DNA of 64,000 nucleotides from Arthrobacter sp. S41 (GTDB lineage Bacteria; Actinomycetota; Actinomycetes; Actinomycetales; Micrococcaceae): assembly GCF_004320535.1 (NCBI RefSeq), contig NZ_SIHY01000001.1, positions 310,001-374,000 on the forward strand, written 5' to 3'. Positions within the stretch are counted from its first letter, which is position 1. Each line of letters starts with the position of its first letter. A model generated the notes under the pieces. That model was not told where the DNA came from, did no database searches, and saw only the letters and a list, made by a program, of their open reading frames with translations. Of this stretch, positions 4,806 to 32,417 are shown one piece after another. The translations under genes and the position numbers were made by a program.

Positions 4806-4825
4806 TATTTCTTGGGGGAATACAG
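4806..4825 (+). promoter_or_regulatory. G5-loop hairpin before the first exopolysaccharide gene
   Basis: TATTTC (4806-4811) can pair with GGAATA (4817-4822), holding TTGGG in the loop of the CTTGGGGGAA motif. Three nt later comes an ATG (4826). The same G5 arrangement occurs at five other starts in this locus. It may act as an atypical ribosome site or a regulatory hairpin. Confidence 0.45.
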
Positions 4826-4912
4826 ATGCTTGACTTTGTGTTGCCGACCAGCGACCACCCTTGCAGCGTTGAATCGCTCGCCAGGGTGGGAACAAGCCAT
4901 GTCGCAAATTAG
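4826..4912 (+). CDS. Possible 28-codon leader ORF overlapping the sugar-transferase start
   Basis: An ATG three nt after the G5 hairpin opens a 28-codon frame beginning MLDFVLPTSDHPC and ending at TAG 4910-4912. The stop lies 9-11 nt inside the following gene if that gene starts at ATG 4899, so the two would overlap by 14 nt and could be translationally coupled. Against it: the codons could be chance, and the larger frame may instead start at ATG 4785 and run through this stretch. No known leader-peptide composition (for example amino-acid runs) is seen. Confidence 0.3.
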   Translation: MLDFVLPTSDHPCSVESLARVGTSHVAN

Positions 4913-6428
4913 CAGCAAACTAGGCGAAGATCATGTGTCTTCGCTCGGAACCTGGACGCTGCCGCGTCCAGCAATCAAAAGGGAAACCGGCACCATTGGT
5001 GCCCAAGGACGCGCCTATCTGCGCCGGCTATACGGTACTGATCTGCTGGTCATTTCCCTGGTGAGCTCCTTGCCGGCAATCGTGCAAGCCCAAAACTCGC
5101 AGATATCTCGATTGCTGCCAGGCAGCACGCATTACTATGCGTTGGCCGGCCTTCTGTTGACCATCGCCTGGATGACCAGCTTGCAATCCTTTAAAGCCCA
5201 TCGCTTGGGCAGCGTTGCCGTGGGCATGCAGGAATACAAGATCATGGTCTATTCGGGGTTGATGCTCTCGGGCTTCGTCGGAGTACTTATCGTGCTCACC
5301 GGCCAAGAGAGCCTGAAGATCTTTCTCGTTCTTTCCTTGCCGTTGGGACTCTCCGCCTTGCTGGCCAGCAGGTGGACCTGGCGCCAGTGGCTGGGGCTGC
5401 GCAGCAGAAGCGGCTATGCTCTGAGCAATGTGCTGGTCTACGGCCAGCCCGCTGACGCCCCGTTCGCAATCCGCCAGATTTCCAAGAAGTCAGGACCTGC
5501 CTACCGCGTTGTTGGGGTGCTGATGGACGGTGCGGCGGATCCGGAAGCCGAACACGATATCCGCAAGGTTGATCCGGTACTTCCGCTGCTATATGACACC
5601 GGCTCGATCGAACAGGAAATTCAGCGCTTGCACGCCGATTCCGTGGTTGTCGCCGGACCTCTGCCAGGTGGGAACGAAGCTTTGCAGCAGTTGGGCTGGC
5701 GTCTTGAAGGCACCGGAACCAGGCTCATTGTGGCCTCCTCGCTGATCGGAGTAGCCAGCCGCCGCGTGCGCACCAGCCCAATGGATGGGATGCCCCTGTT
5801 GCATGTGGAACTGGCGAAATTCACTGGGACGCGATACTTCTTCAAGCGTGCCTTCGACATCGTCTTTTCGCTGCTCGCCTTGCTGGCCCTGTCGCCGGTT
5901 TTTCTCCTGATCGCCTTGCTGATCAGGCGTGATGGCCCAGGGAAGATCTTCTTCCTGCAAGAACGGGCTGGCCAGGATGGCCGTCCCTTCAAGATGTTCA
6001 AATTCCGCACAATGGTCAACGATGCAGAAGCGCAATTGGCCGCGTTGCTAGAGCTGAATGAAGGAGCTGGGCCCCTATTCAAGCTCAAGGACGACCCGCG
6101 GATCACCCGCGTTGGCCATTTGCTGCGCAAGCATTCGCTCGATGAGCTTCCGCAGTTCCTCAACGTCCTGCGCGGCGAAATGTCCGTAGTCGGGCCCCGC
6201 CCGCCACTGTTCACCGAGGTCGAAACCTATCGCGGGCACACCCACCGCCGGCTGCTGCTCAAGCCCGGAGTGACCGGCCTGTGGCAGGTCAGCGGCCGTT
6301 CAAACCTGGAGTGGGACGAAAGCATACGACTGGACCTCTACTACGCGGAGAACTGGACGGTGCTCAGCGATTTGCGCATCATCTGGCGAACCTTCCGCGT
6401 CATGATCAAACCCGATGGAGCTTACTGA
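4899..6428 (+). CDS. Undecaprenyl-phosphate sugar phosphotransferase (WcaJ/WbaP-type initiating transferase)
   Basis: Polyisoprenyl-phosphate hexose-1-phosphate transferase that should start repeat-unit assembly by moving a sugar-1-phosphate from a UDP-sugar to undecaprenyl phosphate at the membrane. About four transmembrane segments lie in the first 170 residues, then a soluble stretch, then a fifth hydrophobic helix (DIVFSLLALLALSPVFLLI) leading into the bacterial sugar transferase domain. Its motifs are KMFKFRTM, DDPRITRVG, HSLDELPQFLNVL, MSVVGPRPP and PGVTGLWQVSGR. Start: ATG 4899 after GGTGGGA gives a 509-residue protein of normal family layout; an in-frame ATG at 4785 would add 38 residues of unconvincing sequence. 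It is first in the operon, and its TGA overlaps the next ATG. The sugar is not fixed by sequence; nearby PglD- and DegT-like genes make diNAcBac or another amino sugar possible. Confidence 0.88.
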   Translation: MSQISSKLGEDHVSSLGTWTLPRPAIKRETGTIGAQGRAYLRRLYGTDLLVISLVSSLPAIVQAQNSQISRLLPGSTHYYALAGLLLTIAWMTSLQSFKAHRLGSVAVGMQEYKIMVYSGLMLSGFVGVLIVLTGQESLKIFLVLSLPLGLSALLASRWTWRQWLGLRSRSGYALSNVLVYGQPADAPFAIRQISKKSGPAYRVVGVLMDGAADPEAEHDIRKVDPVLPLLYDTGSIEQEIQRLHADSVVVAGPLPGGNEALQQLGWRLEGTGTRLIVASSLIGVASRRVRTSPMDGMPLLHVELAKFTGTRYFFKRAFDIVFSLLALLALSPVFLLIALLIRRDGPGKIFFLQERAGQDGRPFKMFKFRTMVNDAEAQLAALLELNEGAGPLFKLKDDPRITRVGHLLRKHSLDELPQFLNVLRGEMSVVGPRPPLFTEVETYRGHTHRRLLLKPGVTGLWQVSGRSNLEWDESIRLDLYYAENWTVLSDLRIIWRTFRVMIKPDGAY

Positions 6429-7525
6429 TGAGTGTTGCACCCGAGACCCTGGTCCACCCGGCCCTGCGCGTCGCCGTGATCGGCGCCGGCTACTGGGGCC
6501 CGAACCTTGCCCGGAACTTTGCCATGAGCACCGACTGGGAATTAGTCGCCATCTGCGACATGGATCTTGACCGAGCCGAAGCCCTGGCCCGCAAGACTGG
6601 CAACCCGGCTGTGGTCAGCTCGCTTGACGAGCTGCTGGCCCGCCACCAGATTGATGCCGTGGCCATTGCCACGCCGGCACGGACACACCACCAGATCGCC
6701 ATGCAGGCGATCGCCGCTGGCAAGCACGTCGTGGTGGAAAAGCCGCTGGCGGACAACAGCGTGCATGGCGCCCAGATGGTTGAAGCCGCGGCTGCGGCGG
6801 GCACCATCTTGATGGCCGACCACACGTACTGCTACACCCCGGCGGTGCTCAAGATTCGTGATCTGCTTGCTGATAACGAACTGGGGGAGATCCTCTACAT
6901 CGATTCCACCCGGATCAATCTCGGGCTGGTCCAGCCCGACGTCGACGTGTTCTGGGATCTGGCCCCGCATGATTTGTCCATCTTGGACTTCGTGCTGCCC
7001 GGCGGATTGTCCGCCCGCACCGTCACGGCGTTGGGATCAGATCCCTTGCACGCCGGAAAGTCGTGCGTCGGCTACCTGAGCATGGAACTGGAATCCGGCA
7101 TCCTGGCGCACATCAACGTGAACTGGCTATCGCCGACCAAGATCCGCCGGATGGTTATCGGAGGCAGCCGCAAGACGCTGGTCTGGGATGACCTGAACCC
7201 GCAGCAGCGGCTGACCATTTTCGACCGCGGAGTCGATCTGGAACGCCAGGAAATGATGCGCGCCGATGCAGAAGACCGCAAGGGGGCCACGATTTCCTAT
7301 CGCCTAGGCGATACATGGTCTCCGGCCCTCTCCGAATTCGAGCCGCTGGGCCTGATGGTTTCCGAATTCGCGGCCAGCATTCGCGGCGCACGCCCGGCAC
7401 CCACAGATGGGCCCTCGGCCCTGCGGGTGCTCAAGGTCCTTGAGCACGCCGATCGCAGCCGGGCCGCCGCGGCGGCCACCCTGTCCACCGACCACAGCAC
7501 AGCAGCAATGGAGAATGCACGATGA
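6428..7525 (+). CDS. Gfo/Idh/MocA-family NAD-dependent sugar dehydrogenase (WbpB/WlbA-like)
   Basis: 365 residues. An N-terminal Rossmann fold opens with VAVIGAGYWGPNLARNF. The family catalytic EKP motif is present (VVVEKPLA), followed by the C-terminal alpha/beta substrate domain (DLAPHDLSILDF). In amino-sugar pathways such enzymes oxidise C3 of a UDP-N-acetylamino-uronic acid before transamination. A WbpE-like DegT enzyme (10384) and a WbpD-like acetyltransferase (22543, minus) in the same locus fit a UDP-GlcNAc3NAcA-type pathway; the 6-dehydrogenase WbpA is not in the window. Start ATG 6428 overlaps the upstream stop by one base, and the stop overlaps the next gene (ATGA). Family is certain; substrate is inferred. 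Confidence 0.82.
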   Translation: MSVAPETLVHPALRVAVIGAGYWGPNLARNFAMSTDWELVAICDMDLDRAEALARKTGNPAVVSSLDELLARHQIDAVAIATPARTHHQIAMQAIAAGKHVVVEKPLADNSVHGAQMVEAAAAAGTILMADHTYCYTPAVLKIRDLLADNELGEILYIDSTRINLGLVQPDVDVFWDLAPHDLSILDFVLPGGLSARTVTALGSDPLHAGKSCVGYLSMELESGILAHINVNWLSPTKIRRMVIGGSRKTLVWDDLNPQQRLTIFDRGVDLERQEMMRADAEDRKGATISYRLGDTWSPALSEFEPLGLMVSEFAASIRGARPAPTDGPSALRVLKVLEHADRSRAAAAATLSTDHSTAAMENAR

Positions 7526-8544
7526 ACGAAAATATCAAGAACCTCGCAGGCGGACGATTCCTGGTCACCGGTGGTGCGGGCACCATCGGCTCGGAAATCG
7601 TCGACCAGCTGCTGGCCGCGGGAGCAGCCCATGTGGACGTGCTGGACAACCTGGTCCGCGGCCGGCGCAGCAACCTCGCTGATGCCCTGGCCACCGGACG
7701 GGTCACCCTGTACGTCGGGGACATCACCGACCGGGCGATGGTCCGCGAAGTGATGGCGGGCAAGGACATAGTCTTCCACCAGGCGGCCATCCGCATCACC
7801 CAGTGCGCCGAGGAACCGCGGCTGGCCTTGGATGTCATGGTCAACGGCACCTTCAATGTGCTCGAAGCAGCGGTGGAAGCCGGGGTGCCCAAGATTGTGG
7901 CCGCCTCCAGCGCCTCGGTGTACGGCATGGCCGAGGAATTTCCCACCACTGAACGCCACCATCCCTATAACAACGACACCCTGTACGGAGCTGCGAAGAC
8001 TTTCAACGAGGGACTGTTTAAGTCCTTCCGCGCCATGTATGGCCTGGACTACGTGATGCTGCGCTACTTCAATGTTTATGGCCCGCGAATGGATGTTCAC
8101 GGCGCCTATACCGAGGTGCTGGTGCGCTGGATGGAACGCATCGCCGATGGCCTGCCGCCACTGATTTTTGGTGATGGTTCACAAACCATGGACTTCGTGG
8201 TGTCACAAGACATCGCCCGGGCGAATCTCTTGGCAGCCAGTAGCCCGGTCACCGAAGGGGTCTACAACATCGCCAGTGGCACCGAAACCAGTCTCAAAGA
8301 GTTGGCTCACAGCCTATTGCGCGTCATGGATTCGAATTTGAGTATCGAATACGGGCCAGAACGATCCGTGAACTCAGTGGTGCGGCGCCTGGCTGACACC
8401 AGCGCAGCGCGTAAAGACCTGGGGTTCGAGGCCAGTATCGGGTTAGAAGAAGGACTGCGCACACTCGTTGAGTGGTGGAAACCATTGCGTGAAGAAGTTG
8501 CCGCCGGACGTGCCTTAGCCACGCCCATCGGCGCAAACAAATAA
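7522..8544 (+). CDS. NAD-dependent nucleotide-sugar epimerase/dehydratase (extended SDR)
   Basis: 340 residues. The nucleotide-binding motif is TGGAGTIGSEIVDQL, the catalytic serine region is AASSASVYG, and the YxxxK pair is YGAAK. FNVYGPRM is typical of UDP-sugar 4-epimerases and related extended SDRs. It most likely epimerises or otherwise converts a UDP-sugar for the exopolysaccharide repeat unit. It sits in the operon with 4-nt overlap upstream. Downstream, a 33-nt gap carries a G-run hairpin before the next gene. The exact reaction (UDP-Glc/GlcNAc 4-epimerase or uronic-acid epimerase) cannot be fixed from motifs alone. Confidence 0.82.
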   Translation: MNENIKNLAGGRFLVTGGAGTIGSEIVDQLLAAGAAHVDVLDNLVRGRRSNLADALATGRVTLYVGDITDRAMVREVMAGKDIVFHQAAIRITQCAEEPRLALDVMVNGTFNVLEAAVEAGVPKIVAASSASVYGMAEEFPTTERHHPYNNDTLYGAAKTFNEGLFKSFRAMYGLDYVMLRYFNVYGPRMDVHGAYTEVLVRWMERIADGLPPLIFGDGSQTMDFVVSQDIARANLLAASSPVTEGVYNIASGTETSLKELAHSLLRVMDSNLSIEYGPERSVNSVVRRLADTSAARKDLGFEASIGLEEGLRTLVEWWKPLREEVAAGRALATPIGANK

Positions 8545-8553
8545 GCAGATACT

Positions 8554-8577
8554 GATTTTTTTGGGGGGAAAAGAATC
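8554..8577 (+). promoter_or_regulatory. G6-loop hairpin ending at the start codon of the DegT gene
   Basis: The nine bases 8554-8562 (GATTTTTTT) pair with 8569-8577 (AAAAGAATC) with one T-G pair, leaving exactly GGGGGG in the loop. The ATG at 8578 follows with no spacer. There is no other purine-rich ribosome site, so the G-run is either the ribosome contact or a regulatory element. Best example of the repeated element of this locus. Confidence 0.55.
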
Positions 8578-9732
8578 ATGAATCGCATTAGTGTGATGAA
8601 ACCTTGGCTGGGACAAGCCGAGACCGACGCGGTCGCCGAGGTAATTGCCTCAGGATGGGTAGCGCAGGGGCCGCGGACCGCAGCTTTTGAAGAAGCTTTC
8701 GCCGCGCATCAACAGGTGGATTACGCGGTGGCAACGTCCAGTTGCACCACCGCTTTGCACTTGGCCTTGTTGGTTGCCGGGGTGGGAGCTGGAGATGATG
8801 TCATCGTGCCTTCGTTTTCCTTCGTGGCCACCGCTAACGCACCGACTTATGTTGGTGCCCGTCCGGTGTTCGCGGATGTTGAGGAATTGACCGGGAACGT
8901 CACAGCGCAGACAGTCCGTGCGGTACTGACTGAGAAAACTACTGCCATCATTGTGGTGGACCAGGGCGGTATGCCGCTGGATCTTCAGCCGTTGCGTGAG
9001 CTTTGTGATGAGTTGGATCTGGTCCTCATTGAAGACGCCGCCTGCGGCGCAGGGTCAACTTATCGTGGAGCTGCGGTAGGAGCCGGCGCGGACGTGTCCG
9101 CGTGGTCGTTCCATCCACGCAAGCTCTTGACCACTGGCGAAGGTGGCATGCTCACCACCAACAACCTGCAGTGGGCCCAACGTGCGCGTCAGTTACGTGA
9201 ACATTCAATGGATGTCTCTGCTGCCGATCGTCACAACTCCACACTGGCACCAGCTGAAAGTTACAAGGAAATTGGCTACAACTTCCGCATGACGGATTTG
9301 CAGGCTGCCCTTGGCCTAGTTCAGTTGGAGAAGCTGGACACCATGGTGGCTCGCCGCCGGTACTTGGCATCCCGGTACCAGCGAGCGTTTGCCAATGTGC
9401 CGGGACTGCGGTGCGTTGCAGATCCTGAGCATGGAACCTCAAACTTCCAATCATTCTGGATTGAGATTGGACCAGAATTTGGGGCGGACCGTGAGGCACT
9501 ACTTGAGCGGCTTGCCGAAGACGATATTTCGGCCCGACGTGGCATTATGGCCTCGCATCTGCAATCGGCCTATGCAGGTCATTCTGGAATTGTCGCTGCC
9601 CTGCCTGCAACCGAACATCTGACGGCAAACACGTTGATTCTGCCGCTTTACCACCAATTGGAAGAGCATGAGCAGGATCGTGTGATCACCAGTGTGCTGG
9701 CCAACGTGCTTGCCGCCACCGGCGGTGAGTGA
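8578..9732 (+). CDS. DegT/DnrJ/EryC1/StrS-family sugar aminotransferase (PglE-like)
   Basis: 384 residues; PLP-dependent transaminase placing an amino group on a keto nucleotide sugar. Family marks: SSCTTALHLALLVAGVGAGDDVIVPSFSF split over two motifs, EDAACGAGS with the PLP-ring aspartate, and SFHPRKLLTTGEGG containing the Schiff-base lysine. The following gene is a PglD-like acyltransferase. Adjacent DegT plus PglD-like genes are the usual arrangement of the C4 aminotransferase and acetyltransferase making UDP-diNAcBac or similar sugars. The 4,6-dehydratase (PglF type) is not in the window. Translation begins directly after a G6-loop hairpin. Confidence 0.85.
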   Translation: MNRISVMKPWLGQAETDAVAEVIASGWVAQGPRTAAFEEAFAAHQQVDYAVATSSCTTALHLALLVAGVGAGDDVIVPSFSFVATANAPTYVGARPVFADVEELTGNVTAQTVRAVLTEKTTAIIVVDQGGMPLDLQPLRELCDELDLVLIEDAACGAGSTYRGAAVGAGADVSAWSFHPRKLLTTGEGGMLTTNNLQWAQRARQLREHSMDVSAADRHNSTLAPAESYKEIGYNFRMTDLQAALGLVQLEKLDTMVARRRYLASRYQRAFANVPGLRCVADPEHGTSNFQSFWIEIGPEFGADREALLERLAEDDISARRGIMASHLQSAYAGHSGIVAALPATEHLTANTLILPLYHQLEEHEQDRVITSVLANVLAATGGE

Positions 9733-9733
9733 A

Positions 9734-10387
9734 ATGTCGAAAATACTGCTTGTGGCGGCCAGCGGATTGGCCCGAGAAACCATCGCATCCATTGAGCAGA
9801 CCGGTGACCATGAGGTCATTGGACTGCTTGATGACAACACTGCATTGCACGGAACGCTCATTGGCAAGGTTCGAGTTCTTGGGGGACTGGAAATAGCCAA
9901 AGAGCGTAGCGAAAAGCTATTGATCTGTGCAGGGAAGGGAAGCAGTCGGGCAGCTATTGTGAGCCGGCTGGGCCTGGATGATTCTCGCTATGCAACGCAC
10001 ATCCACAGCACGGCACTACTTGGAAGTTCGGTGAGCGTGGGATGCGGAAGTATCATCCTCGCCGACTGCGTGGCGACCTGCGATATCTGGGTGGGACGGC
10101 ACACGGTGCTCATGCCCCAGGTAGTGCTGACACATGACAACGTGCTTGAGGACTTTTGCACGCTGGCGGCCGGCGCAAAACTGGCAGGCCGGGTCACGGT
10201 GGGTCATCGGGCCTACCTCGGAACTAATGCGGCGGTGCGTGAAGACGTGCAGATTGGTGCCGGTGCGGTCATCGGCATGGGATCAGCATTGCTGCACGAT
10301 GTCCCAGCGGAGCAGACCTGGGCAGGAAACCCCGCCCGACAGATCATTTCTTCATCAAATCTTGAATCGACAGGGCCTAGAGCATGA
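9734..10387 (+). CDS. PglD/NeuD-family sugar O/N-acyltransferase (hexapeptide repeat)
   Basis: 217 residues. The N-terminal PglD Rossmann-like region (KILLVAASGLARETI, GLLDDN) precedes a left-handed beta-helix of hexapeptide repeats. The LTHDN motif contains the family catalytic histidine, and AGNPARQI is the usual end. It acetylates an amino group on a UDP-4-amino sugar using acetyl-CoA. Start ATG 9734 lies one base past the upstream stop and gives the normal family N-terminus; an earlier in-frame ATG at 9692 adds 14 unlikely residues. The stop overlaps the next ATG. Likely partner of the aminotransferase at 8578. Confidence 0.85.
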   Translation: MSKILLVAASGLARETIASIEQTGDHEVIGLLDDNTALHGTLIGKVRVLGGLEIAKERSEKLLICAGKGSSRAAIVSRLGLDDSRYATHIHSTALLGSSVSVGCGSIILADCVATCDIWVGRHTVLMPQVVLTHDNVLEDFCTLAAGAKLAGRVTVGHRAYLGTNAAVREDVQIGAGAVIGMGSALLHDVPAEQTWAGNPARQIISSSNLESTGPRA

Positions 10388-11511
10388 GTAACAAGACTAT
10401 GAGTACCCAGACGCAGATTCCGCTGGTGGACCTGCGAGCGCAGCAACTTGAAGTGCAGCAGCAGGTTAATGAATCACTGGCACAAATCTTTGAGAATACC
10501 GCCTTCATTGGGGGAGCAGCGGTCACCGACTTTGAGCAAAGTTATGCAAGTTTCTTGGGCTCTGGACACTGCGTTGGGGTGGGGAACGGCACCGATGCCT
10601 TGGAGTTGGCGCTTCGCGCCAGCGGGATTGGGCCGGGTGATGAAGTGATTCTTCCAGCGAATACCTTCATTGCCACCGCTGAAGCGGTCAGCCTGACCGG
10701 CGCGACTGTTGTCTTGGTGGATGTTGATCCCGAATACCTGCTGATTGATCCGTTGGCGGTAGCAGAAGCTGTTACCGAAAAGACCAAAGCCATCATGCCC
10801 GTGCATCTTTACGGACAAACCGCATTTATTGAAGAATTATCGCCCATTGCCCGCGCGTGCGGCGCGGTGATCATTGAAGATGCGGCCCAAGCACAGGGCG
10901 CCACCCGCCACGGACGTAACGCCGGGACCTTGGGGGACATTGCCGGAACCAGCTTCTACCCGGGCAAAAATCTGGGTGCTGCAGGGGATGCCGGAGCAGT
11001 GCTGACTAGTAATGAACAACTGGCAACCCGGGTAAGGTTGCTCTCGGCTCACGGCAGCCGCACTAAATACGTACACGAGATCGTGGGACGCAACTCGCGG
11101 ATGGATGCGGTGCAAGCGGTGGTGCTCAGCGCCAAGCTGGAACACTTAGCCCGTTGGAATGAACTGCGCCGCCAAGCAGCTGCTCGGTATAATGAACTCC
11201 TGGCCGGGGTTGAGGGAGTCATCCTGCCACAACAGGCCATGGGGAACCACGACGTGTGGCACCTGTACGTTGTACAAGTTCTAGACCGCGACCGCGTGGT
11301 GGCGGAACTCAACGCTGCAGGTATTGGTGCCGGAATCCATTACCCGCATCCAGTCCACCTGACCCAAGCCTTCGCACACCTGGGATACAAGGCAGGAGAT
11401 TTTCCTGTCGCCGAGCGCGCTGCCGGCAGAATCCTATCCCTACCGCTGTACCCGCACATCACCGAAGAGCAACAACGGCGAGTCGCAGATGTGCTGATTT
11501 CGGTGCTGTGA
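10384..11511 (+). CDS. Second DegT-family sugar aminotransferase (WbpE-like)
   Basis: 375 residues. It begins IPLVDLRAQ, typical of the WbpE/QdtB branch, then GVGNGTDALELALRA, DEVILPANTFIATAEA, the EDAAQAQGA PLP-aspartate motif and SFYPGKNLGAAGDAG with the PLP lysine. WbpE-type enzymes transaminate the 3-keto sugar made by a WbpB-type dehydrogenase, present at 6428. The locus therefore carries two aminotransferases of different branches, implying two amino sugars. Start ATG 10384 overlaps the previous stop (ATGA). Branch assignment is by motif, without alignment. Confidence 0.84.
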   Translation: MSNKTMSTQTQIPLVDLRAQQLEVQQQVNESLAQIFENTAFIGGAAVTDFEQSYASFLGSGHCVGVGNGTDALELALRASGIGPGDEVILPANTFIATAEAVSLTGATVVLVDVDPEYLLIDPLAVAEAVTEKTKAIMPVHLYGQTAFIEELSPIARACGAVIIEDAAQAQGATRHGRNAGTLGDIAGTSFYPGKNLGAAGDAGAVLTSNEQLATRVRLLSAHGSRTKYVHEIVGRNSRMDAVQAVVLSAKLEHLARWNELRRQAAARYNELLAGVEGVILPQQAMGNHDVWHLYVVQVLDRDRVVAELNAAGIGAGIHYPHPVHLTQAFAHLGYKAGDFPVAERAAGRILSLPLYPHITEEQQRRVADVLISVL

Positions 11512-11515
11512 TCCA

Positions 11516-15403: not shown

Positions 15404-15457
15404 GGGGGACTTGGTACGCAATAGTCGTGGCATCACTGGGGGAGTCACTTTTGTGAC
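15404..15457 (+). promoter_or_regulatory. Two upstream G5 sites and an inverted repeat before the Wzz-like gene
   Basis: The 102-nt gap before 15475 carries three GGGGGA sites: 15404, 15438 and 15466, the last in a start-codon hairpin annotated separately. Directly after the second is GTCAC-TTTT-GTGAC (15444-15457), a perfect 5-bp inverted repeat that could be an RNA hairpin or protein operator. Several GGA-type sites in one leader resemble leaders bound by CsrA/RsmE-type proteins in other bacteria. No such protein is known from this window. Confidence 0.35.
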
Positions 15458-15477
15458 ATTTTTTTGGGGGAAAAATG
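15457..15477 (+). promoter_or_regulatory. G5-loop hairpin enclosing the start codon of the Wzz-like gene
   Basis: CATTTTT (15457-15463) pairs perfectly with AAAAATG (15471-15477), with TTGGGGG in the loop. The 3' arm includes the ATG start itself (15475-15477). If this hairpin forms in mRNA, the start codon is sequestered. Confidence 0.5.
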
Positions 15478-22446: not shown

Positions 22447-22542
22447 GATTTTCCTTCAACGAAGTGATCAGCACCATCAAGCCCAGTCGATGACACGACT
22501 GGTCCGAGAATGGTGGAAAGTACGAGTGATAACTGCGGTCAG

Positions 22543-23130: not shown

Positions 23131-23150
23131 GAATTTCCCCCAAAAAATTC
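23131..23150 (-). promoter_or_regulatory. G5-loop hairpin ending at the start codon of the acetyltransferase
   Basis: On the minus strand GAATTT pairs perfectly with AAATTC, with TTTGGGGG in the loop, and the ATG (23130) follows with no spacer. The layout matches 8554-8577, on the opposite strand and 14 kb away. Confidence 0.55.
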
Positions 23151-23358: not shown

Positions 23359-23400
23359 GTTATCTCGTGTTCTTGGGGGAACAAGATAACTAAGGGGGAA
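23359..23400 (+). promoter_or_regulatory. Double G5 leader: long hairpin plus second G-run before 23404
   Basis: GTTATCT (23359-23365) pairs with AGATAAC (23384-23390). Inside, GTTC (23369-23372) pairs with GAAC (23379-23382) and TTGGGG fills the loop. A second AAGGGGGAA (23392-23400) directly precedes ATG 23404 and could act as its ribosome site. Two G5 sites in one short leader. Confidence 0.5.
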
Positions 23401-23403
23401 AAT

Positions 23404-24141
23404 ATGAAAACCAAGATACTTGTGTCCATAGTGCTCGGTGCCGCCGCAGTAGTGCTGGTAGTCGCGCTCGCCCTAGATTTTGGCGGGCGGACTCCTAGCG
23501 CTGACTTGTCCGCGGAAACTGCACAAAGTCCCATGGCCACGTCCCCCTCGGCTTCTTCAGCCACGTCTGCGAAATCCTCGTCGAGCCCGTCTGAAACGGG
23601 CAAGGATTCTGAGCAGAAGAAACAAACGACTGAAGAAGAGAAAACGTCATCCGAACCCACAGCCGAAGCGACCCGTCCAAGTTGGGACCCGAAACCTAGT
23701 GCCTCGGAATCACGGCTAGAAGTACCTGAACAGCCCGAGGCCTCGCAGTTTAAGCTGCCTGATACACCGAAACGTGAGCCGGTACTGACGAAGGTCCCAC
23801 AAACTGGTGTGGCCACCGGCAAGCTGACCAAAGAATTTCCAAAAGACGCGGTACCGGTGCCAAAATCGACGACTATCGTTCAGTCTTCGGTAGAGAAGCA
23901 AGAAAAACTGGTTTTTGTCGGCGTTGAAGGGCGTAGCAATGCGAGTGTAGAAGAAGTTCTTTCCTTCTATTCTGAGCACTTCGAGCAGCAACAGTGGCTG
24001 ACAGCCCAGAGTGAACCGGCCGAGGGCGTCACCCAGTTGCTGGGATCCTTCGGGGAGGACTCCACCACGGTGACGATTCGCCAACTACCTACCGGGGCAA
24101 CATCAATCGTTGCTGCCGGAGTTTTTGAAATTCAGGAGTAG
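23404..24141 (+). CDS. Membrane-anchored extracytoplasmic protein of unknown function
   Basis: 245 residues. An N-terminal hydrophobic helix (ILVSIVLGAAAVVLVVALAL) is followed by about 100 residues rich in Ser, Thr, Glu, Lys and Pro, probably an unstructured spacer crossing the envelope. A small folded domain at about 140-245 is rich in beta-type sequence (EKLVFVGVEGRSNASVEEVLSFYSEHFE, TTVTIRQLP). No family recognised. It is first of three genes with tight spacing (4 nt to the MFS gene, which overlaps the third), suggesting a common envelope job. Translation starts after a double G5 leader shared in style with the polysaccharide genes. Confidence 0.72.
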   Translation: MKTKILVSIVLGAAAVVLVVALALDFGGRTPSADLSAETAQSPMATSPSASSATSAKSSSSPSETGKDSEQKKQTTEEEKTSSEPTAEATRPSWDPKPSASESRLEVPEQPEASQFKLPDTPKREPVLTKVPQTGVATGKLTKEFPKDAVPVPKSTTIVQSSVEKQEKLVFVGVEGRSNASVEEVLSFYSEHFEQQQWLTAQSEPAEGVTQLLGSFGEDSTTVTIRQLPTGATSIVAAGVFEIQE

Positions 24142-24144
24142 CGA

Positions 24145-25431: not shown

Positions 25432-26459
25432 CTAGGCAGGCAGCCGGAATGTCGGCTCAAATCAGGTGGCTCATCCTGGCAATTATTGCAGTGCTAGCAC
25501 TCGGCTCTGTCACTGTCTATGCGGTGCAAGCCTTCGGTCGGTATCAAGCACGGACGACGGGGGCCTCTGCAGCGCAAGTTACCGACAAATTGGTTGACGG
25601 TAATCGGATAGTCTTTCGCAACACAGCCATGGGTCAAGGATATGGGCAGATCGCCTCGGTCGCTATCGCGGATCCTGCCGGTCCTAGGGAACTGTTCCAG
25701 ACAGTTTGTGATCGGGTTGATGCGACGGCCCAATACATTTCCTGTATGCGCACTCAGCGCGGAATCCCGACAACTTTTGAAACGAGAATCCTCGATGCGC
25801 AAGCCAATAGCATCGATGAATGGCCGTTGTCTGGTGTTCCCAGCCGAACTCGAATTTCCGAGGCAGGCTTGGTAGCAACCACCGCATTTGTCACTGGGCA
25901 TTCCTATGCCACCGACAGTTTCTCTACGGAGACTGTCATTAGATCTGTGCAGGGGCAGGACTTCGGAAACCTTGAGAACTACTCGATTTTTATTGATGGT
26001 CAGGAACTGACTGCCATTGACCGCAATGTCTGGGGCGTAACTTTTGCCACTGAGAACAAGTTCTACGCCACTGTGGCTTCCGCAGGCAAGACATGGATGG
26101 TTGAAGGGAACTTAGAAGAGCGCCGGATGAACTCCATCATCGAGAATGCTGAGTGCCCCTCAGTTGCGCCAGATCAATCCAAGGTGGCTTACAAAAAGCG
26201 CCGGGCCCAGGGTGGACTAGCGCACTGGGATATTGCCGTCCTGGACCTAAAAACGCAGAAAGAGACTCTCCTCCCGCTGGAGCAAGGATTTGATGATCAG
26301 CTGGAATGGCTGGATTCGCAGACACTGCTCTTTGGAATGCCGCGCACCGACAGCGTGGGCGATAGCGATGTCTACAGCATCAAGGCCACCACCAACGCCC
26401 AACCACAACTATTCATCAAAGATGCGTGGTCACCGTCGGTAGTACGTATCGTCAAATAA
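25428..26459 (+). CDS. Membrane-anchored TolB/beta-propeller-like protein
   Basis: 343 residues. An N-terminal transmembrane helix (WLILAIIAVLALGSVTVYAV) is followed by an extracytoplasmic domain. The C-terminal part shows propeller-like repeats (CPSVAPDQSKVAYKKR, HWDIAVLDLKTQKETLLPL, LEWLDSQTLLFGMP, SDVYSIKA), as in TolB/WD40-like PD40 blades. Two possible Cys pairs lie in the domain. It overlaps the MFS gene by 4 nt. No enzymatic residues recognised; likely a binding or scaffold protein. A gap of 60 nt separates its stop from the convergent stop of the large secreted protein, with GCACAC/GTGTGC forming a weak shared hairpin there. Confidence 0.6.
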   Translation: MTRQAAGMSAQIRWLILAIIAVLALGSVTVYAVQAFGRYQARTTGASAAQVTDKLVDGNRIVFRNTAMGQGYGQIASVAIADPAGPRELFQTVCDRVDATAQYISCMRTQRGIPTTFETRILDAQANSIDEWPLSGVPSRTRISEAGLVATTAFVTGHSYATDSFSTETVIRSVQGQDFGNLENYSIFIDGQELTAIDRNVWGVTFATENKFYATVASAGKTWMVEGNLEERRMNSIIENAECPSVAPDQSKVAYKKRRAQGGLAHWDIAVLDLKTQKETLLPLEQGFDDQLEWLDSQTLLFGMPRTDSVGDSDVYSIKATTNAQPQLFIKDAWSPSVVRIVK

Positions 26460-26519
26460 CCGCACACCTTTTTTGACCAAGTGTGCTTGCGGAACTATCT
26501 GCTGGTTGCGAATCAGTGA

Positions 26520-29500
26520 TCAGGGAGTCGGTGCCACCGTCCCTGGCCCTTCACTCGCAGACCCCGTGCTCGGTTCTACACTCGCAACCGTTGTGTCTGG
26601 CTCTTGACTCGTAACCCCAGTGCTTGGTGCTGTCTGACTGGCCGATGATTCAGTAGGAGTGGCCACCGGTTCTGTAGCTACAGGACCAGTGTCGGTTGTT
26701 TGTAAGGATTCAGTGGCTTCGGATTCAGCTGTGCTGGGCGACTGAACTGACGGACTTTGTTCAGGTGTTAGACCGGATGTTGGGTCAGCATCTGAAACTT
26801 CGTAGAGTACGTCCACAAAGTAATTGGTACTGTTCCAAGACCTGCCGGGTTGGCTACTATTCCCATAGCGGAAGACGCCATTTGCCCCTTCGAGTCGCAG
26901 GTCATCATTAGATTTTCCATCCGCGAACTGTGCAGGAGTATGTACGTAACCACCGTTTGGTGCATGGTAGGAAACGGTGAACTCCATGCCTTCCGTGACC
27001 TCCACGGGGGTGCTCAGATAGGCGGTATGCCATCCTTGTTCACTGGTAGATGCAAAGCTGGCCGTAGCCAACTGAGCACCTGGGGAGTCCCACACAGTAC
27101 TGGTGTGCGAACCAATGCCGCCGGGCCCTTGGTAGTAGCGGAGAGCGTGGAGACGTAAGTCTTTTTCCGCCACCATGCGCATACCTAATTCAACCGCCGC
27201 GGTATCTCCAGGATCCAGTACAGTCGGCGTTTCATCCAGCCCTAGGAATGAGACCGTGGGCGTAGCGAGACCCACGGTGGAGAACGTCCATGGAGCAAGA
27301 ACTTCTTGGGTGCTGCCCACACCCAAGAGATTGACTGTATCCACGGTGATCACGCTAGCTTCGGGAAGTGGAGACGAGGGACTGAAAGTCAGTGTCTTAT
27401 TCTCGTTGGAGATCGTGGTGGTGCCGTCAACCGTAGTGGCACCAACTTTCACTTCGATTGTTGCCTCGCTACTGACGGCTTGATTGAAGATCAGCGTGAT
27501 TTCACTGTCTACGGCGACATCACTGGCACCGGCACTCGGTGACCTGTCGGTGAGTTGTAGTGGTTCTGCCGCTGGTTTGAACCGCACGTCCACGAGATAA
27601 CTGGTGGAAACCATGGAAGCAGGGAAACCATCGTTATAACCATAGTGACCGGCGGAGTCGGTAGTCTTCAAAGGACCAACCTGTAACCCACTTCCAAGCA
27701 CGCCCGGTGAAGCGGGGTAGACGCCGTTACTCCGGTAGGCAGCAACATACTCGTTGTTGGGATCCAAGGGTACTGGCGCATCAAAAGCAGCATACTGCCA
27801 TCCGGACACTGGAACATCTGGGAAGACCAACTCGGCAATCACTTCACCGGTGGTGGAGTAGAGCCAACCGTTGTGCGCACCGGTTTCGCCGACGCTACGG
27901 TAGAACTCCAATCCAAGGATTTCTCCAGCAGTGTCCGTGGAGAACCGAGTGCCCAACGTGACAGGCACTCCATCGTTTATTGCAGCCACGGTTGGGGTAT
28001 CGGTATTGCTGAATAAACCACAGGGGCAGGCCGAAGGATCATCAGGTGCCAAGGCTGCGGTGCGGAAAGACCATTCAGCGACGTCGAGTACCGGTGACCC
28101 CGGGGAGCTAATGTGAGCCGGCGTCACGGTGATGATCGAATCTGCGGGCAGTGGCTCGGTAGCGGTGAATGTCAAAGTAGTGCCACCGGGGCTGATTGCG
28201 GTGGTGCCGGCAATCGTGGTCTCACCCGTCGCTACCGAAAGCGTTGCCGAAGCATCGATGGGTTGATTGAAGCTCACAGAAATTTCAGCAGCAGTCCCGA
28301 CCCCTGAAGATTCGGCGGACGGCACCAATCCGGTCACCTGAAGTGGTTGCGCAGGATCTGTAGGAGCAATGGTGGGCCCGGTAGGAGTAGCCGACTCGGT
28401 TGGAATAGCCGACTCCGTAGGCTCGGCAGTTTCCGTTGGAGTGCTCACCGTATAGGCCAAGTCCACGAAGTAGTTACTGTTATTCCATGAACTGACGGGG
28501 ACGCTGCCCGAGCCGTAGGTATAAAGCCCATTCGAACCAGTCAGTGAGAGCTCAGCATTCGACTTTCCATTGGCGAAGTCTGCAGAGGTAAAAACGTAGC
28601 CTCCCGACGGGGCCTGATAGGAAATGGTGAATTCACTGCCTTGCGTTATTGCCACTGGGCTGTCCAGATAGGCGGTTTGCCATCCTTGCTGTGAGGTTTG
28701 TGCAAACGTGGCCGTGGCCAGTTTAGTCCCGGTGGAATCCCAGATGGAACCAGTATGCTCACCGAACCCAGAGGGTCCCTGGTAATAGCGCAGCGCGTGT
28801 ACCTGAATATCTTTTTGCGCACTGAATTTTAGTCCAAGCTCCACGGGAGCGTCATCGGAAGGATCCAGTTGATCCGGCTGCTGATCTTCAAGGAAGGTGG
28901 TCAAGGCTGGGCCTTGCCCCGCCGTCCTAAACGTCCACAAAGGCAATGATGCTTCGCCAGATTCTGTACCCACGATACCGGTGGGCTTGACGCTCACTAC
29001 GGTGGCTTCGGGCAGGTCAGCGTCAGGGGTGAAAATCAGTGTTGTTCCGGATGCGTCCAGGGCGGAGCTACCAGAAATAGTTCCTTGGGAAGTACTGATT
29101 TCCAAGGCACCACCCGGTTCCAATGATTCGCTGAAGGTTGCTGAAATTTCGGTATCAACCGCCACATCATTAGCACCCGTGGCAGGTGTTTGTTCGGTGA
29201 TACTGACAGGGCTACCCGCAGCAGTGAAACTGACATCTACGAGATAGCTTGCTGAGACCATAGATCCAGGGAATTCTTCAGCGTAGCTGTAGTGCCCGGC
29301 ATTGCTCGTAGTATGTAGTGGTCCAACCTGTAACGGTTGACCAAGCCCACCCGGAGTTACTGGATAGATACCATTACTTCGGTAGGCCGCCACATATTCA
29401 GTATTGGCCTGAATGCTGACCGGCGAGTCAAAAGCGGCGTACTGCCAACCGGCGGCCGAGTCATCCGGAAACTGCACCTGGGCAATGGTGTCGCCATTGG

Positions 29501-32402
29501 ACGAATAAAGCCATCCGGTATGTGCTCCAGTTTCTCCGGGGGAGCGATAGAACTTTAAGCCGTTGAGCACGCCATCAGTGTCCGCGGAGAACCGTGTACT
29601 CAGGGTCACCGGCTTCCCGTCATTCACTACAGGTTCTGCGGGGATATCTTGGTCGTTGTACAGGCTGCATGGGCAAGCCGCTGGGTCTGCGGGTATTGGC
29701 AGTACGGTGTTGAAAGTCCACGTATTGCCACGGTTCACCGGATTGCCGGTTAGGTCTGTGGCGCTCAGGGTGACCGTGTAGCTGCCACCGTCACTTAGTG
29801 GTGCCTCCGGCTGGAAGGTGGCCCGCCGAGTGATCGCATCGTAGCTGGTGGTTCCGGAAACGTCCTGTCCGGAAGAATCCTGCACCTTGAAGCTGACCGA
29901 GGATGGATCACTTTGTTTGGACAGCGTGGCGCCTATAGACGTGGCCACAGGGACGCTGTTGGCCGTTGGGATAGGCGACTGCGCATAAGCACTGAGTTCT
30001 ATGGACGCTCCGGTTTCAAAGACCGCATCCACATAATAGTTGCTGCGGTCCCACGCAGTGGTGGGGAATCCCGCAGAACTGTTGTAGAGACCCGCTGAAG
30101 GTGTGCCAAAACCGCCGGCTACCTTCACGGCAGACCAATCAACTCCACGGTAGGCAAAATCTTGGATTGCCACAGCGTAGTGTCCGTTAGGTGCGTAATA
30201 GGAGACGACAAATTCATCACCTGCGTGCGCCTCTACAGGTTCACTGAATAACGCGGTTTGCCAGCCGGTGCTGCTTTCGTTGCTAAAAGTGGTTGTCGCC
30301 AACTCTGTGCCGTTCAGGCTCCACAACGTACCGGTATGATTGCCGGTATTTGCAGCGCTCTTGTAGTACCTGACCGCAGTGATATAGCCCTCGGATGCGG
30401 CAGTAAACCGCAACCCCAGCTCCACCGAGGAATCATCGCCCGAATCCTTAATCTGAGGCTCTTGCTGGCCGAAGGCGCTATAGGGGCCCTTGACCTCAAA
30501 AGGTACGGGGGTTGGCTCTGTTGAGTAGTTTGCAGAATCGTCAACAGCCCGGACGAGCAGATCATTTTCACCGGTTCCGAGTTGAACAGTGTTGATTGAC
30601 CATTGCGTGGTGCCTTCGGCCAGTTGCCAGGAAAGTCCTGAGTCAAAGGAATATTCAACCGCAGAGACCAGGCCTTGCGCGTCACTGGCGGTGCCTTCCA
30701 CACTGACCATTTCGCCAAAGGAAACCGCGCTCGCCGGTGCCGAGGTTACCTGAACCGATGGAGCTTGAAGATCTTTGGGAGCGTCCGGATACTCTAAGTT
30801 GCTCATGAGCGTTGCAGGCAAGGCGTCCATGTCCGCCAGCAGATTCACCTGAGCCTGTTGCATCCGTGGATCTTCAGGCGCGCCATCACCGTCGTGCCAT
30901 TGATCAAGTCCCCAAGTCCATTGCACACTACCGGCGGAGAAGACCGAAGCTCCACTTGATGCCATATATAAAGTGGTGTGGTGCGTGGTTGACCCCGGTG
31001 CGACTTGATTGCCGAAGTCTTGCAAATATTCTGGAATGTCCCCGGTGGTAGTGGACAAATGGATGAGCCCTGGAGGTCTGAAACCGTTGGGCAAGTCTTC
31101 ATTAGATTCATAACCTACGGTATGCGGAGCAAGTTCTGTTTTGCTGCCCGCTGTTTGGCTGTCCAAAGAAGTATCGCGCCAGAGACGCATTTTTCCTTCT
31201 TCCGAGTTCACCGTGACCGGAAGATCTCCACTGTTCACCACGTAGGCTGTGCCAGTAAACCCGTTTTCGGGAAGACCACCACCTTGTTCTTGAGATGCAA
31301 AACGCGGATCACGCCAGGTGCCCGTCCACTGGGAGGAAGGATCAATCTTGGAATTGGACCAGGTTTCCTTGTAGCTAACCAACGTCCGGTAATTATTTCC
31401 ACCGGTGGTAGAAGGCTCATAACGGGTACGCCAGTACACCTCGTTACCGGAGAGGAATTGCAAGTTCACGCCTGCGTCACGGGCGGCTTCTACATTGCTT
31501 CGTTGGGCGCCCGACCAGTATTCGTCATGGCCCACGGAAAGGAAGACATTATGGTTGGTGAGCAGGTCACCGTGCCTGTCGGTGTCAACGCCGGAGAAGT
31601 AGCTGACGTCGTATCCGTTGCGTTCTAGGAAACGGACTAGTGGGTATTCGGCCCCAAAATAGAAATCTCTGGCTTCAACGCCGTCACGCGTCGCGAAAGG
31701 TCTGTTGTAGCTGATCTTAAAGGCGCGGCCGTTGTCTGCTCCGGAATAGAAATCTGAACCACCGTAGAGGTTATATGCGTGCCATGTGGGGTCAGAGGTT
31801 TGGAAGAGTACCTGCGAGGTGCTGGATTCATTGCGCACGATAAAGGTGATGTGGCTTGAACCCCCGGTGTCGGTGCGGGTGAGCTTTGCTAAGTACACAC
31901 CTGATACTGCATCGCTGGGGACCTCCCAGGTTGCCGAGATATCCCATGTGCCGCAGTCGGTCAGTTCGGTGGCGACATCCGTCAAACATTCGGGCTGGAT
32001 CTGCGGAAGCTGTGCGCTAGGTGATATAGAGGTGATTTTTCGTGCGCCGAGCCCGTTATACCAGCCGGTACGGTAAATATCGATGGAATATGCGGAGGCA
32101 TCAGTATCAATCTTAAAATCGATAGGTTCTCCGACATTGACACTGATATCGGCGGCAAATCCTTGGATTGAGTCATCACCGGCCCCGTCGATATCCCATT
32201 CGGTCCATGGAGAACCTGGTTTTGAATTTTCGCAGACAATAGCGTTGTCTTCTGGACCGCACTCTTCGGCGGCTCGTGCCGGTGCGGCTATAAGTAGGGA
32301 GAGTATTAGTCCTGTAAGAGCAGCGAATGCTGTCAAGAATCGAGATTTTTCCGCAGCACGGTGTTCTCTGGCTTCACTACTTGTAAATTGCGCCACGCTC
32401 AT
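26520..32402 (-). CDS. Giant secreted multidomain protein with five DUF4082-like modules
   Basis: 1960 residues. Start ATG 32402 gives a clean signal peptide (FLTAFAALTGLILSLLIAAPARA, then AEECG). The N-terminal 530 residues resemble the N,N-dimethylformamidase-beta-like domain (IDIYRTGWYNGLGARK, SVGHDEYWSGAQR, FLSGNEVYWRTRY). A Big/Ig-like domain follows, then five DUF4082-like beta modules beginning near 30485, 29690, 28910, 28030 and 27265, separated by Big_5/SbsA-like Ig domains. Modules 2 and 4 start with a CPC motif and modules 3 and 5 with FLEDQQ/FLGLDE, so the last four look like a duplicated pair of about 1.65 kb. A Ser/Thr/Pro-rich tail (about 90 residues) ends the protein without LPXTG. 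Probable surface or matrix protein or carbohydrate-binding enzyme. Start preceded by a TTGGGGGA run. Confidence 0.8.
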   Translation of the reverse strand: MSVAQFTSSEAREHRAAEKSRFLTAFAALTGLILSLLIAAPARAAEECGPEDNAIVCENSKPGSPWTEWDIDGAGDDSIQGFAADISVNVGEPIDFKIDTDASAYSIDIYRTGWYNGLGARKITSISPSAQLPQIQPECLTDVATELTDCGTWDISATWEVPSDAVSGVYLAKLTRTDTGGSSHITFIVRNESSTSQVLFQTSDPTWHAYNLYGGSDFYSGADNGRAFKISYNRPFATRDGVEARDFYFGAEYPLVRFLERNGYDVSYFSGVDTDRHGDLLTNHNVFLSVGHDEYWSGAQRSNVEAARDAGVNLQFLSGNEVYWRTRYEPSTTGGNNYRTLVSYKETWSNSKIDPSSQWTGTWRDPRFASQEQGGGLPENGFTGTAYVVNSGDLPVTVNSEEGKMRLWRDTSLDSQTAGSKTELAPHTVGYESNEDLPNGFRPPGLIHLSTTTGDIPEYLQDFGNQVAPGSTTHHTTLYMASSGASVFSAGSVQWTWGLDQWHDGDGAPEDPRMQQAQVNLLADMDALPATLMSNLEYPDAPKDLQAPSVQVTSAPASAVSFGEMVSVEGTASDAQGLVSAVEYSFDSGLSWQLAEGTTQWSINTVQLGTGENDLLVRAVDDSANYSTEPTPVPFEVKGPYSAFGQQEPQIKDSGDDSSVELGLRFTAASEGYITAVRYYKSAANTGNHTGTLWSLNGTELATTTFSNESSTGWQTALFSEPVEAHAGDEFVVSYYAPNGHYAVAIQDFAYRGVDWSAVKVAGGFGTPSAGLYNSSAGFPTTAWDRSNYYVDAVFETGASIELSAYAQSPIPTANSVPVATSIGATLSKQSDPSSVSFKVQDSSGQDVSGTTSYDAITRRATFQPEAPLSDGGSYTVTLSATDLTGNPVNRGNTWTFNTVLPIPADPAACPCSLYNDQDIPAEPVVNDGKPVTLSTRFSADTDGVLNGLKFYRSPGETGAHTGWLYSSNGDTIAQVQFPDDSAAGWQYAAFDSPVSIQANTEYVAAYRSNGIYPVTPGGLGQPLQVGPLHTTSNAGHYSYAEEFPGSMVSASYLVDVSFTAAGSPVSITEQTPATGANDVAVDTEISATFSESLEPGGALEISTSQGTISGSSALDASGTTLIFTPDADLPEATVVSVKPTGIVGTESGEASLPLWTFRTAGQGPALTTFLEDQQPDQLDPSDDAPVELGLKFSAQKDIQVHALRYYQGPSGFGEHTGSIWDSTGTKLATATFAQTSQQGWQTAYLDSPVAITQGSEFTISYQAPSGGYVFTSADFANGKSNAELSLTGSNGLYTYGSGSVPVSSWNNSNYFVDLAYTVSTPTETAEPTESAIPTESATPTGPTIAPTDPAQPLQVTGLVPSAESSGVGTAAEISVSFNQPIDASATLSVATGETTIAGTTAISPGGTTLTFTATEPLPADSIITVTPAHISSPGSPVLDVAEWSFRTAALAPDDPSACPCGLFSNTDTPTVAAINDGVPVTLGTRFSTDTAGEILGLEFYRSVGETGAHNGWLYSTTGEVIAELVFPDVPVSGWQYAAFDAPVPLDPNNEYVAAYRSNGVYPASPGVLGSGLQVGPLKTTDSAGHYGYNDGFPASMVSTSYLVDVRFKPAAEPLQLTDRSPSAGASDVAVDSEITLIFNQAVSSEATIEVKVGATTVDGTTTISNENKTLTFSPSSPLPEASVITVDTVNLLGVGSTQEVLAPWTFSTVGLATPTVSFLGLDETPTVLDPGDTAAVELGMRMVAEKDLRLHALRYYQGPGGIGSHTSTVWDSPGAQLATASFASTSEQGWHTAYLSTPVEVTEGMEFTVSYHAPNGGYVHTPAQFADGKSNDDLRLEGANGVFRYGNSSQPGRSWNSTNYFVDVLYEVSDADPTSGLTPEQSPSVQSPSTAESEATESLQTTDTGPVATEPVATPTESSASQTAPSTGVTSQEPDTTVASVEPSTGSASEGPGTVAPTP

Positions 32403-32417
32403 TACATCCCCCAAGGA
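32403..32417 (-). promoter_or_regulatory. Weak G5 start element before the giant secreted protein
   Basis: On the minus strand TTCCTTGGGGGATGTA precedes ATG 32402. A 4-bp TTCC/GGGA hairpin is possible. The G-run spacing is a few bases longer than in the better copies, so this one could simply serve as a ribosome site. Confidence 0.35.

Follow-up and report, generated by a model that had tools for sequence, protein, structure and literature searches.

A structured C-run RNA and G-run Shine-Dalgarno sites in an exopolysaccharide locus of Micrococcaceae

We analyzed a 64,000-nt window of the Arthrobacter sp. S41 genome (contig 1, 310 to 374 kb, of 3.47 Mb), whose nearest named relatives are Glutamicibacter species and two 'Arthrobacter' isolates (Micrococcaceae), bacteria known from soil and cheese. 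The window contains an exopolysaccharide (EPS) locus that encodes a wbaP-type sugar transferase, an epimerase, DegT aminotransferases, acyltransferases, a flippase-type protein, glycosyltransferases, a Wzy-type protein, and a 1960-aa DUF4082 protein. Two LuxR-type regulator genes are located ahead of the locus, and G+C content drops from 0.64 to 0.53 across it. Here, we describe two features of this locus: a conserved C-rich element, the C-run RNA, which occupies part of the 495-nt stretch that separates the second LuxR-type gene from a short open reading frame (ORF), and runs of five or six G (G5 or G6) at the Shine-Dalgarno (SD) position of several genes. An earlier reading of the same DNA from its letters alone (the sequence-only reading) had pointed to the G-runs at six gene starts; it mentioned neither the C-run RNA at 4498-4612 nor the 28-codon ORF that overlaps the start of wbaP. 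The features at the head of the locus are as follows, in window positions.

4356..4372, + strand: promoter/operator motif RGTA-N5-YACNCGTG of the C-run RNA, with a -10-like TAATGT at 4393-4398
4498..4612, + strand: structured C-run RNA, comprising a core (4498-4558) and a terminator hairpin; its helices covary and it is found in relatives
4533..4538, + strand: CCCCCC on the 3' side of the inner hairpin, the proposed site of pairing with G-runs (predicted mean probability of being unpaired, 0.92)
4569..4608, + strand: intrinsic terminator hairpin with loop AACCCCTCTGC (C4 at 4583-4586) and T5; its arms covary
4696..4713, + strand: the same motif before the wbaP leader, with a spacer of 6 and here RGTG, and a -10-like TAGGCT at 4734-4739
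4794..4797, + strand: upstream G4 run in the wbaP leader, retained in five of six Glutamicibacter relatives (not in L260)
4806..4825, + strand: first site of the sequence-only reading, with G5 (4814-4818) as the SD of the short ORF and weak arms
4826..4912, + strand: 28-codon ORF, overlapping the wbaP start
4899..6428, + strand: wbaP-type undecaprenyl-phosphate sugar transferase, with its true start at ATG 4899

Aligned across six Glutamicibacter sequences, the element has an outer stem of 16 bp that surrounds a hairpin of 5 bp as well as an unpaired ACCCCCCAG-type stretch. An intrinsic terminator comes next, and its arms vary in sequence among the copies but remain paired. CCCCCAGC is retained in all six Glutamicibacter copies of our alignment A3. 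At the terminator-loop position, G. protophormiae and G. soli have GAUCUCCCCCGAUC; the loop holds C4 to C5 in five of the six A3 copies and in L321, not in L322, and loci L048 and L096-L098 are without C4. The length of the element varies between 111 and 119 nt by amounts not divisible by three, making a coding sequence less likely. Across the family, we found a 13-bp outer stem, an inner hairpin, an unpaired C4-C8-AGC stretch at the 3' side, and covarying helices. From the sequence, a putative transcript would run from approximately 4405 to 4609, of which we infer the start.

We searched for further copies with two covariance models. Model R2 matched 8 of 18 Glutamicibacter genomes at E < 1e-8, with one match in each; six of the eight supplied the sequences from which R2 was built, and two (G149 and G151) are new. 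R2 also matches upstream of wbaP in other genera, with a best E of 8.5e-9. The core model R3, built from 11 copies of other genera and the second copy of MYb214, matches loci outside its building set with E down to 4e-15 and the window copy with 3e-7, and its best background match in 400 kb of the window genome has E = 0.15. In total, a copy is present in 20 of 30 Micrococcaceae wbaP loci. A class-wide R3 search, in which 13 candidates were scored per genome, matched 6 of 394 genomes, including two outside the Micrococcaceae (G430 and G444) that look unconvincing.

The predicted helices are supported by covariation in two alignments. In the structure-fitted alignment A5 (24 rows, including L323 and L324, which are without a C-run and probably false), 93.6% of cells were paired compared to 36 to 48% for slid partners, the covariation score was 0.594 compared to 0.223 in shuffles, and all five measures were reached in 0 of 500 shuffles. 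The unfitted MAFFT alignment A7, which also underlies R3, has 12 rows; it leaves out L323 and L324, the near-identical L317, L199, and L105, and seven Glutamicibacter rows (the window, L196 at 9679, L197, L198, L200, L321, and L322). Here the score was 0.339 compared to 0.183 (0 of 500 shuffles). Paired cells and double-change cells were likewise matched by no shuffle, and pairs with a double change by 1 of 500; the measure 'further pair types' was not distinctive, being matched by 153 of 500.

A scan of the window with Rfam reported two tRNAs only, with no family at cut-off on the C-run RNA, and no match reached the gathering score in 16 loci. The best subthreshold match on the window element was ar7 (20.4 of 60 bits, E 0.066), and directly downstream of the core in L341 it was BjrC68 (24.6 of 39 bits, E 0.007). 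A literature search covering titles and the openings of abstracts yielded no described element that we recognized as a counterpart. Comparative evidence gives good support to the C-run RNA as a family of structured RNAs, apparently new, from polysaccharide loci of the Micrococcaceae. Separately, two Glutamicibacter genomes (L183 and L175) have an intergenic hairpin with CCCCC in its loop, either a terminator or another C-loop RNA, flanked by ORFs that by eye resemble a PEP-utilising enzyme and a short-chain dehydrogenase.

The C-run RNA is found in more than one arrangement. Glutamicibacter and the genera represented by L096-L098, L104, and L058 show the stand-alone arrangement, with one promoter motif and a terminator for the RNA and a second, separate motif for wbaP. 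In the leader arrangement (L051, L055, L063, L064, L068, L099, L100, and L106), a distance of 23 to 59 nt separates the core from the first start codon of the long ORF that follows. Genomes of one genus, g10, contain as many as four copies; two of these genomes each have one copy before an ORF that by eye resembles sufS. Core copies also occur downstream of wbaP, as a second copy at L196:11941-12006 and L197:11986 and as the sole copy of L260 (L260:11823); the one in L196 lies near a lipoprotein-like signal sequence. In 8 of 15 copies whose core loop contains GAGACC, the complement GGUCUC occurs within 250 nt upstream (L063, L099, L100, L055, L068, L106, L051, and L339; approximately 0.06 expected per copy), in some just before the start of a short ORF. 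The two sequences could form a pseudoknot or a second pairing site.

The motif RGTA-N5/6-YACNCGTG has only two matches in the window, one before the RNA and one before wbaP, and two in a 400-kb sample of the same genome. It occurs 132 to 326 nt upstream of 26 of the 34 RNA copies on hand, many of which are closely related and which are not a random sample, often with TAnnnT approximately 20 nt further on. That the motif is common to the RNA and wbaP suggests that one regulator drives both, and the neighboring LuxR-type proteins are candidates for this role.

All six G-run sites named in the sequence-only reading could be read directly in the DNA at their positions. G5 or G6 is found 4 to 9 nt upstream of the starts of the short ORF and of the DegT, 248-aa, hexapeptide, 245-aa, and DUF4082 genes. 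At the first of these sites, the G5 is indeed at SD distance; however, ATG 4826 is not the start of wbaP and opens the 28-codon ORF, out of frame, which overlaps the true start by 14 nt. Counterparts of this ORF in six Glutamicibacter relatives have 28 codons in five cases and 24 in G. soli, and six loci of other genera (L043, L044, L045, L058, L104, and L105) have a short ORF of 24 to 31 codons that overlaps by 4 to 17 nt. In five further loci tested (L048, L054, L050, L052, and L062), the G-run start opens a long ORF directly. Because the G-run stands at the start of an overlapping short ORF, it would drive an ORF whose translation is likely coupled to that of wbaP. Orthology of genes in relatives was judged by length, position, and N-terminus, with separate alignments for wbaP, the LuxR gene, and the 248-aa gene alone. 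The remaining G-run features of the window are listed below.

8554..8577, + strand: hairpin with a G6 loop at the start of a DegT-type aminotransferase gene (ATG 8578), retained in G. protophormiae, G. soli, and G. ardleyensis
15404..15408, + strand: leader G5 (a) of the 248-aa gene, within a dyad
15438..15442, + strand: leader G5 (b) of the 248-aa gene, within a weaker dyad, with a counterpart in G. protophormiae
15457..15477, + strand: G5 SD hairpin of the 248-aa gene, whose stem takes in ATG 15475
23131..23150, - strand: G5 SD hairpin GAATTT..AAATTC ahead of a hexapeptide acyltransferase gene (ATG 23130)
23359..23390, + strand: leader hairpin with G5 (23375-23379) of the 245-aa gene; two relatives have other paired arms
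23394..23398, + strand: G5 SD of the 245-aa gene (ATG 23404), without a hairpin
32403..32414, - strand: G5 SD of the 1960-aa DUF4082 surface protein gene (ATG 32402), without a hairpin of its own

The product of the 248-aa gene, which has no Pfam or NCBIfam match, resembles a chain-length regulator by position only. The SD of the DUF4082 gene is also found before 1932-aa ORFs in two relatives (counterparts by size).

G-run SDs cluster in the EPS locus. Counted mechanically, a G5-SD is present in 5 of 18 frames at 4.4 to 33 kb, compared to 6 of 345 frames sampled from 400 kb of this genome (Fisher p = 6e-5); outside the locus, there were none among 18 frames at 33 to 64 kb and none among three to its left. 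The pattern TTGGGGGN{3,10}ATG occurs at 23 places in 3.47 Mb, of which we judged 10 to be ORF starts (one is the short ORF), and 5 of these 10 are in the EPS locus. Two start-like places outside the locus (C1:223404 and C2:45154) were rejected as antisense within genes. Two more G5-SD starts, 1.2 kb apart, are found at G000:C1:1267355 and C1:1268572 (L285 and L286); one product is lipoprotein-like by eye, and one ORF has at least 501 aa. The octamer TTGGGGGA occurs 12 times in the window compared to 2.2 expected. It is a misleading yardstick for enrichment because it is strand-polarized genome-wide, and we dropped it as the motif for this reason. Over all contigs, it occurs 28 times on the + strand and 67 times on the - strand (reversed control, 5 and 5); the + copies predominate over the opening 0.6 Mb of contig 1 and the - copies beyond it (e.g., C1:25162 to C1:2416612), which resembles a KOPS-type chromosome-orientation motif.

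The sequence-only reading had proposed that the G-runs lie in the loops of a shared hairpin whose arms vary while their pairing is kept. Perfect or near-perfect arms are present at 8554-8577, 15457-15477, 23131-23150 (-), and 23360-23389; the arms at 4806 are poor, and both 32403 (-) and the second G5, 23394, lack them. We compared the pairing of each left flank with its own right flank to its pairing with the right flanks of other sites. For 39 sites in 24 groups, a set that includes sites picked by eye, the group mean was 9.5 compared to 6.8 (standard deviation 0.49, p = 0.0002). For 26 rule-chosen sites from relatives only, some of them orthologous, z was 4.25 (p = 0.0005). As a control, the first 150 of the 208 remaining G5 runs in these loci gave z = -0.8. 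Individually, 15 of the 39 sites pair better than 90% of swapped flanks, and the remaining 24 do not, so that a hairpin at every site was rejected. Folding with the G-run kept open, in which energies were compared to those of shuffles, gave a weak signal for nine window sites (Fisher p = 0.011), with none of 41 other window G5 runs at p <= 0.05, and p = 0.001 for 33 sites of relatives, of which five were at p <= 0.05, three of these representing one gene. The idea of varying arms with constant pairing was borne out at corresponding starts, where the window has GAATTT..AAATTC and G. soli has GTCATTT..AAATGAC.

Further G-runs, not listed in the sequence-only reading, are found in leaders at 4794, 15404, and 15438, together with two ahead of the LuxR-type gene 1 kb left of the window. 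This last leader, TTTGGGGGAACGAACCGATTGGGGCGGTTT, is the clearest of its kind. It is strongly conserved in six relatives (49 to 97% protein identity), more so than its flanks, and varies in its first run (G4 to G5) and in JC586 by one shifted G.

L164:18970-19015 (G000:C1:308970-309015), outside the window: two-G-run leader of the first LuxR-type gene, with hairpin AACCG-ATTGGGG-CGGTT

Leader G-runs away from the SD position (15404, 15438, and 23375) argue for a binding partner other than the ribosome. On the evidence of position and pairing, our best reading is that the G-runs at starts serve as SD sequences and constitute regulated ribosome sites. The sequence-only reading had offered such a site as one option, and it fits runs at SD distance, concentrated in the EPS locus, with arms that pair despite differing sequence. 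G-runs are not equally common before random genes and covariation is not missing in relatives, the two outcomes against which that reading had staked its proposal.

We asked how the two features are distributed relative to each other in the 30 wbaP loci, sorted by hand into four classes. Of the loci with a stand-alone RNA, 9 of 10 have a G5-SD before wbaP, as do 3 of 3 with a copy elsewhere nearby, 2 of 7 with a leader-type RNA, and 2 of 10 with no copy near wbaP; the corresponding counts for a control, C5 before wbaP, are 0, 0, 1, and 3. The comparison of stand-alone loci to loci with none (p = 0.005, phylogeny ignored) suggests that stand-alone RNA and G5-SD co-occur.

On balance, we lean slightly toward a reading in which the C-run RNA is a small RNA encoded in the locus that pairs with G-run ribosome sites and represses EPS genes. 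The RNA (4498-4612, +) would be transcribed from its own promoter and ended by the intrinsic terminator, and one factor would activate both the RNA and the EPS operons through the common motif, forming an incoherent feed-forward loop. The unpaired CCCCCC, and in some species the C-run of the terminator loop too, would pair with GGGG to GGGGGG at the SD, where the target runs would be displayed in A/U-rich or hairpin-loop positions. Such pairing would block ribosomes on several EPS transcripts together, with wbaP reached through the overlapping 28-codon ORF.

Several observations weigh against this reading. Predicted duplex energies with the RNA fail to separate G-run starts from other starts: they are -13.8 to -17.1 kcal/mol for the seven G-run starts, yet values of -15.9 and -16.6 kcal/mol are found at starts in the locus that have no G-run SD. 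Among 316 background first starts, 25% are at -14 kcal/mol or lower and 5% at -18 kcal/mol or lower. We dropped duplex energy as a test of targets, given that the EPS starts are not unusual for a G+C-rich genome. The promoter motif is absent at 8 of the 34 RNA copies. In other genera, the RNA is directly upstream of wbaP and could act in cis, and in g10 genomes it is near unrelated genes. L260 has G-run SDs, yet its sole RNA copy is downstream of wbaP. No convincing arms surround 24 of the 39 G-run sites. The co-occurrence counts depend on classes assigned by hand, and 4 of the 10 loci in the 'none' class are from g10, a genus with copies elsewhere.

The main rival is that the C-run RNA acts chiefly in cis on wbaP as a leader or attenuator, either sensing a protein or resembling a riboswitch, and that the other G-run SDs are unrelated to it; its C-run or terminator would control read-through or pair with the wbaP SD in the same transcript. 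We consider this rather unlikely as the chief function, and such a role may be ancestral. It would account for the short distance between core and long ORF in the eight leader-type loci, two of which (L068 and L051) have a G-run SD downstream in cis, for the U-run after the outer stem in L100, L054, and L063, and for the UGAGACC inner loop with its upstream GGUCUC in 8 of 15 copies. It does not account for the window and relatives of its type, where the core is succeeded by a terminator and by a distinct promoter motif for wbaP, nor for copies before unrelated ORFs, one of them sufS-like by eye.

Two other explanations leave the C-run RNA out of the control of the G-run starts. In one, which we regard as improbable, a G-run-binding protein similar in action and unrelated to CsrA recognizes G5-loop hairpins and blocks the SD, and the C-run RNA is irrelevant or separate. 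CsrA targets are known for leaders with several G-run hairpins, one of them at the SD, and the strongly conserved LuxR leader, where one G-run is in a hairpin loop and the other is not, would suit a protein as well; against this, the genome has no CsrA, and no candidate protein was named, no search having gone beyond CsrA. The C-run RNA would not mimic a G-run site and therefore could not directly titrate such a protein. The other explanation, which we find quite improbable, is that the G-run is simply the SD variant favored in this locus, in an accessible A/U-rich initiation region and possibly owing to horizontal transfer, and that the hairpins are incidental. GGGGG can pair with the anti-SD with one wobble, G+C content falls over the locus, and many sites are unstructured, all of which suit this view. 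It is at odds with the leader G-runs off SD distance, some retained in relatives, with the dyad excess and its clean control, and with the recurrence of G-run SDs in other genera together with the RNA.

The proposed pairing of the C-run RNA with G-run ribosome sites resembles that of the actinobacterial RNA 6C/B11 (RF01066). According to one study, C-rich loops of B11/6C in Mycobacterium abscessus pair with G-tracts at ribosome binding sites of surface genes, with compensatory mutations (PMC10470900); another places targets in the lipooligosaccharide (LOS) locus of M. marinum (PMC12395582). Both are small structured RNAs with C-runs, one of them in or near an intrinsic terminator, and in both cases the partners would be G-tracts at ribosome sites of surface genes, which for the C-run RNA is our proposal. 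Unlike 6C/B11, the C-run RNA has another fold and sequence, carries its C-run in a junction rather than a simple hairpin loop, and lies within the polysaccharide locus behind a promoter motif of the EPS type, and the G-runs of its proposed targets are partly in hairpin loops. RF01066 has no match in the window genome (E <= 1) and none in eight Glutamicibacter genomes at E <= 10 (stricter filters, 30 candidates scored per genome), and we rejected 6C as the partner on the latter result; the model is not very sensitive, as the control, Corynebacterium glutamicum, was matched below cut-off. Conversely, R3 yielded no convincing match (best E 0.07) in the 13 loci of the family that the 6C model had picked out. 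In other Micrococcaceae, Rfam 6C exceeds cut-off in 5 of 148 genomes (L110-L114) and is below it in L115-L119 and L121; loops of these RNAs such as AUCCCCCAAGU are exact complements of TTGGGGGA.

Two other candidates were also rejected. A family model of our own, R1, was dropped because the 20 of its matches in the genus that we folded had terminator-like or unconvincing structures. A genome pattern of two C5 runs occurred at 24 places, none of which folded into a recognized paired-loop RNA and three of which are G-run leaders on the opposite strand; the pattern missed the C-run RNA because its second C-run is C4.

Among known regulators of polysaccharide genes, the sequence-only reading had considered a protein such as CsrA and an elongation signal such as ops/JUMPstart. 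CsrA itself found no support, as PF02599 has no match in the genome and positive controls were detected. The G-run leaders resemble CsrA/RsmA target leaders, with several G-rich loop hairpins, one over the SD, at exopolysaccharide genes; they differ in having no PF02599 protein to bind them and a G-run rather than the ANGGA consensus. The ops/JUMPstart element (RfaH), the eps-associated RNA (EAR), and LoaP hairpins are likewise RNA or DNA elements of polysaccharide operons; they act on elongation or termination once per long operon, whereas here the G-run recurs at several gene starts. The hallmarks of ops/JUMPstart are an GGCGGTAG-type ops sequence and an RfaH/NusG paralogue. Such an element would be a poor fit because the G-run is tied to ribosome distance and repeated at internal genes, a judgment made with no ops or RfaH search run. 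Neither EAR nor any other Rfam element reaches cut-off here.

Two proteins encoded in the window each combine several domains. The 1960-aa protein at the edge of the EPS locus (26523-32402, -) combines DMFA2_C, Big_5, and five DUF4082 stretches, and a single 873-aa ORF (38919-41540) combines a polysaccharide pyruvyl transferase domain with a C-terminal nitroreductase domain.

In our judgment, the C-run RNA is a stronger find than the G-run signal, and together the two would make up a self-contained regulon. Given its strong covariation and that no Rfam 15 cut-off was reached, the RNA is a new target for annotation whatever its mechanism. Most Actinobacteria are not known to have Hfq or CsrA, and little is known of their post-transcriptional control beyond the mycobacteria. 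Because a regulator RNA, its likely targets, and a common promoter motif are found in one locus, RNA-RNA control of surface polysaccharide is directly testable here. It is plausible, and we propose it tentatively, that Micrococcaceae polysaccharide loci carry their own multi-copy C-run RNA regulator, a feed-forward brake on capsule or EPS whose origin is independent of 6C/B11. Transcribed from the promoter type of the operons under its control, it would recognize G-runs exposed in hairpin loops at the ribosome sites of several genes with no other relation to each other, among them the short ORF through which translation would be coupled to wbaP. If this is true, C-run RNAs acting on G-run ribosome sites would represent a recurrent, convergent solution for the control of envelope genes in G+C-rich Gram-positive bacteria.

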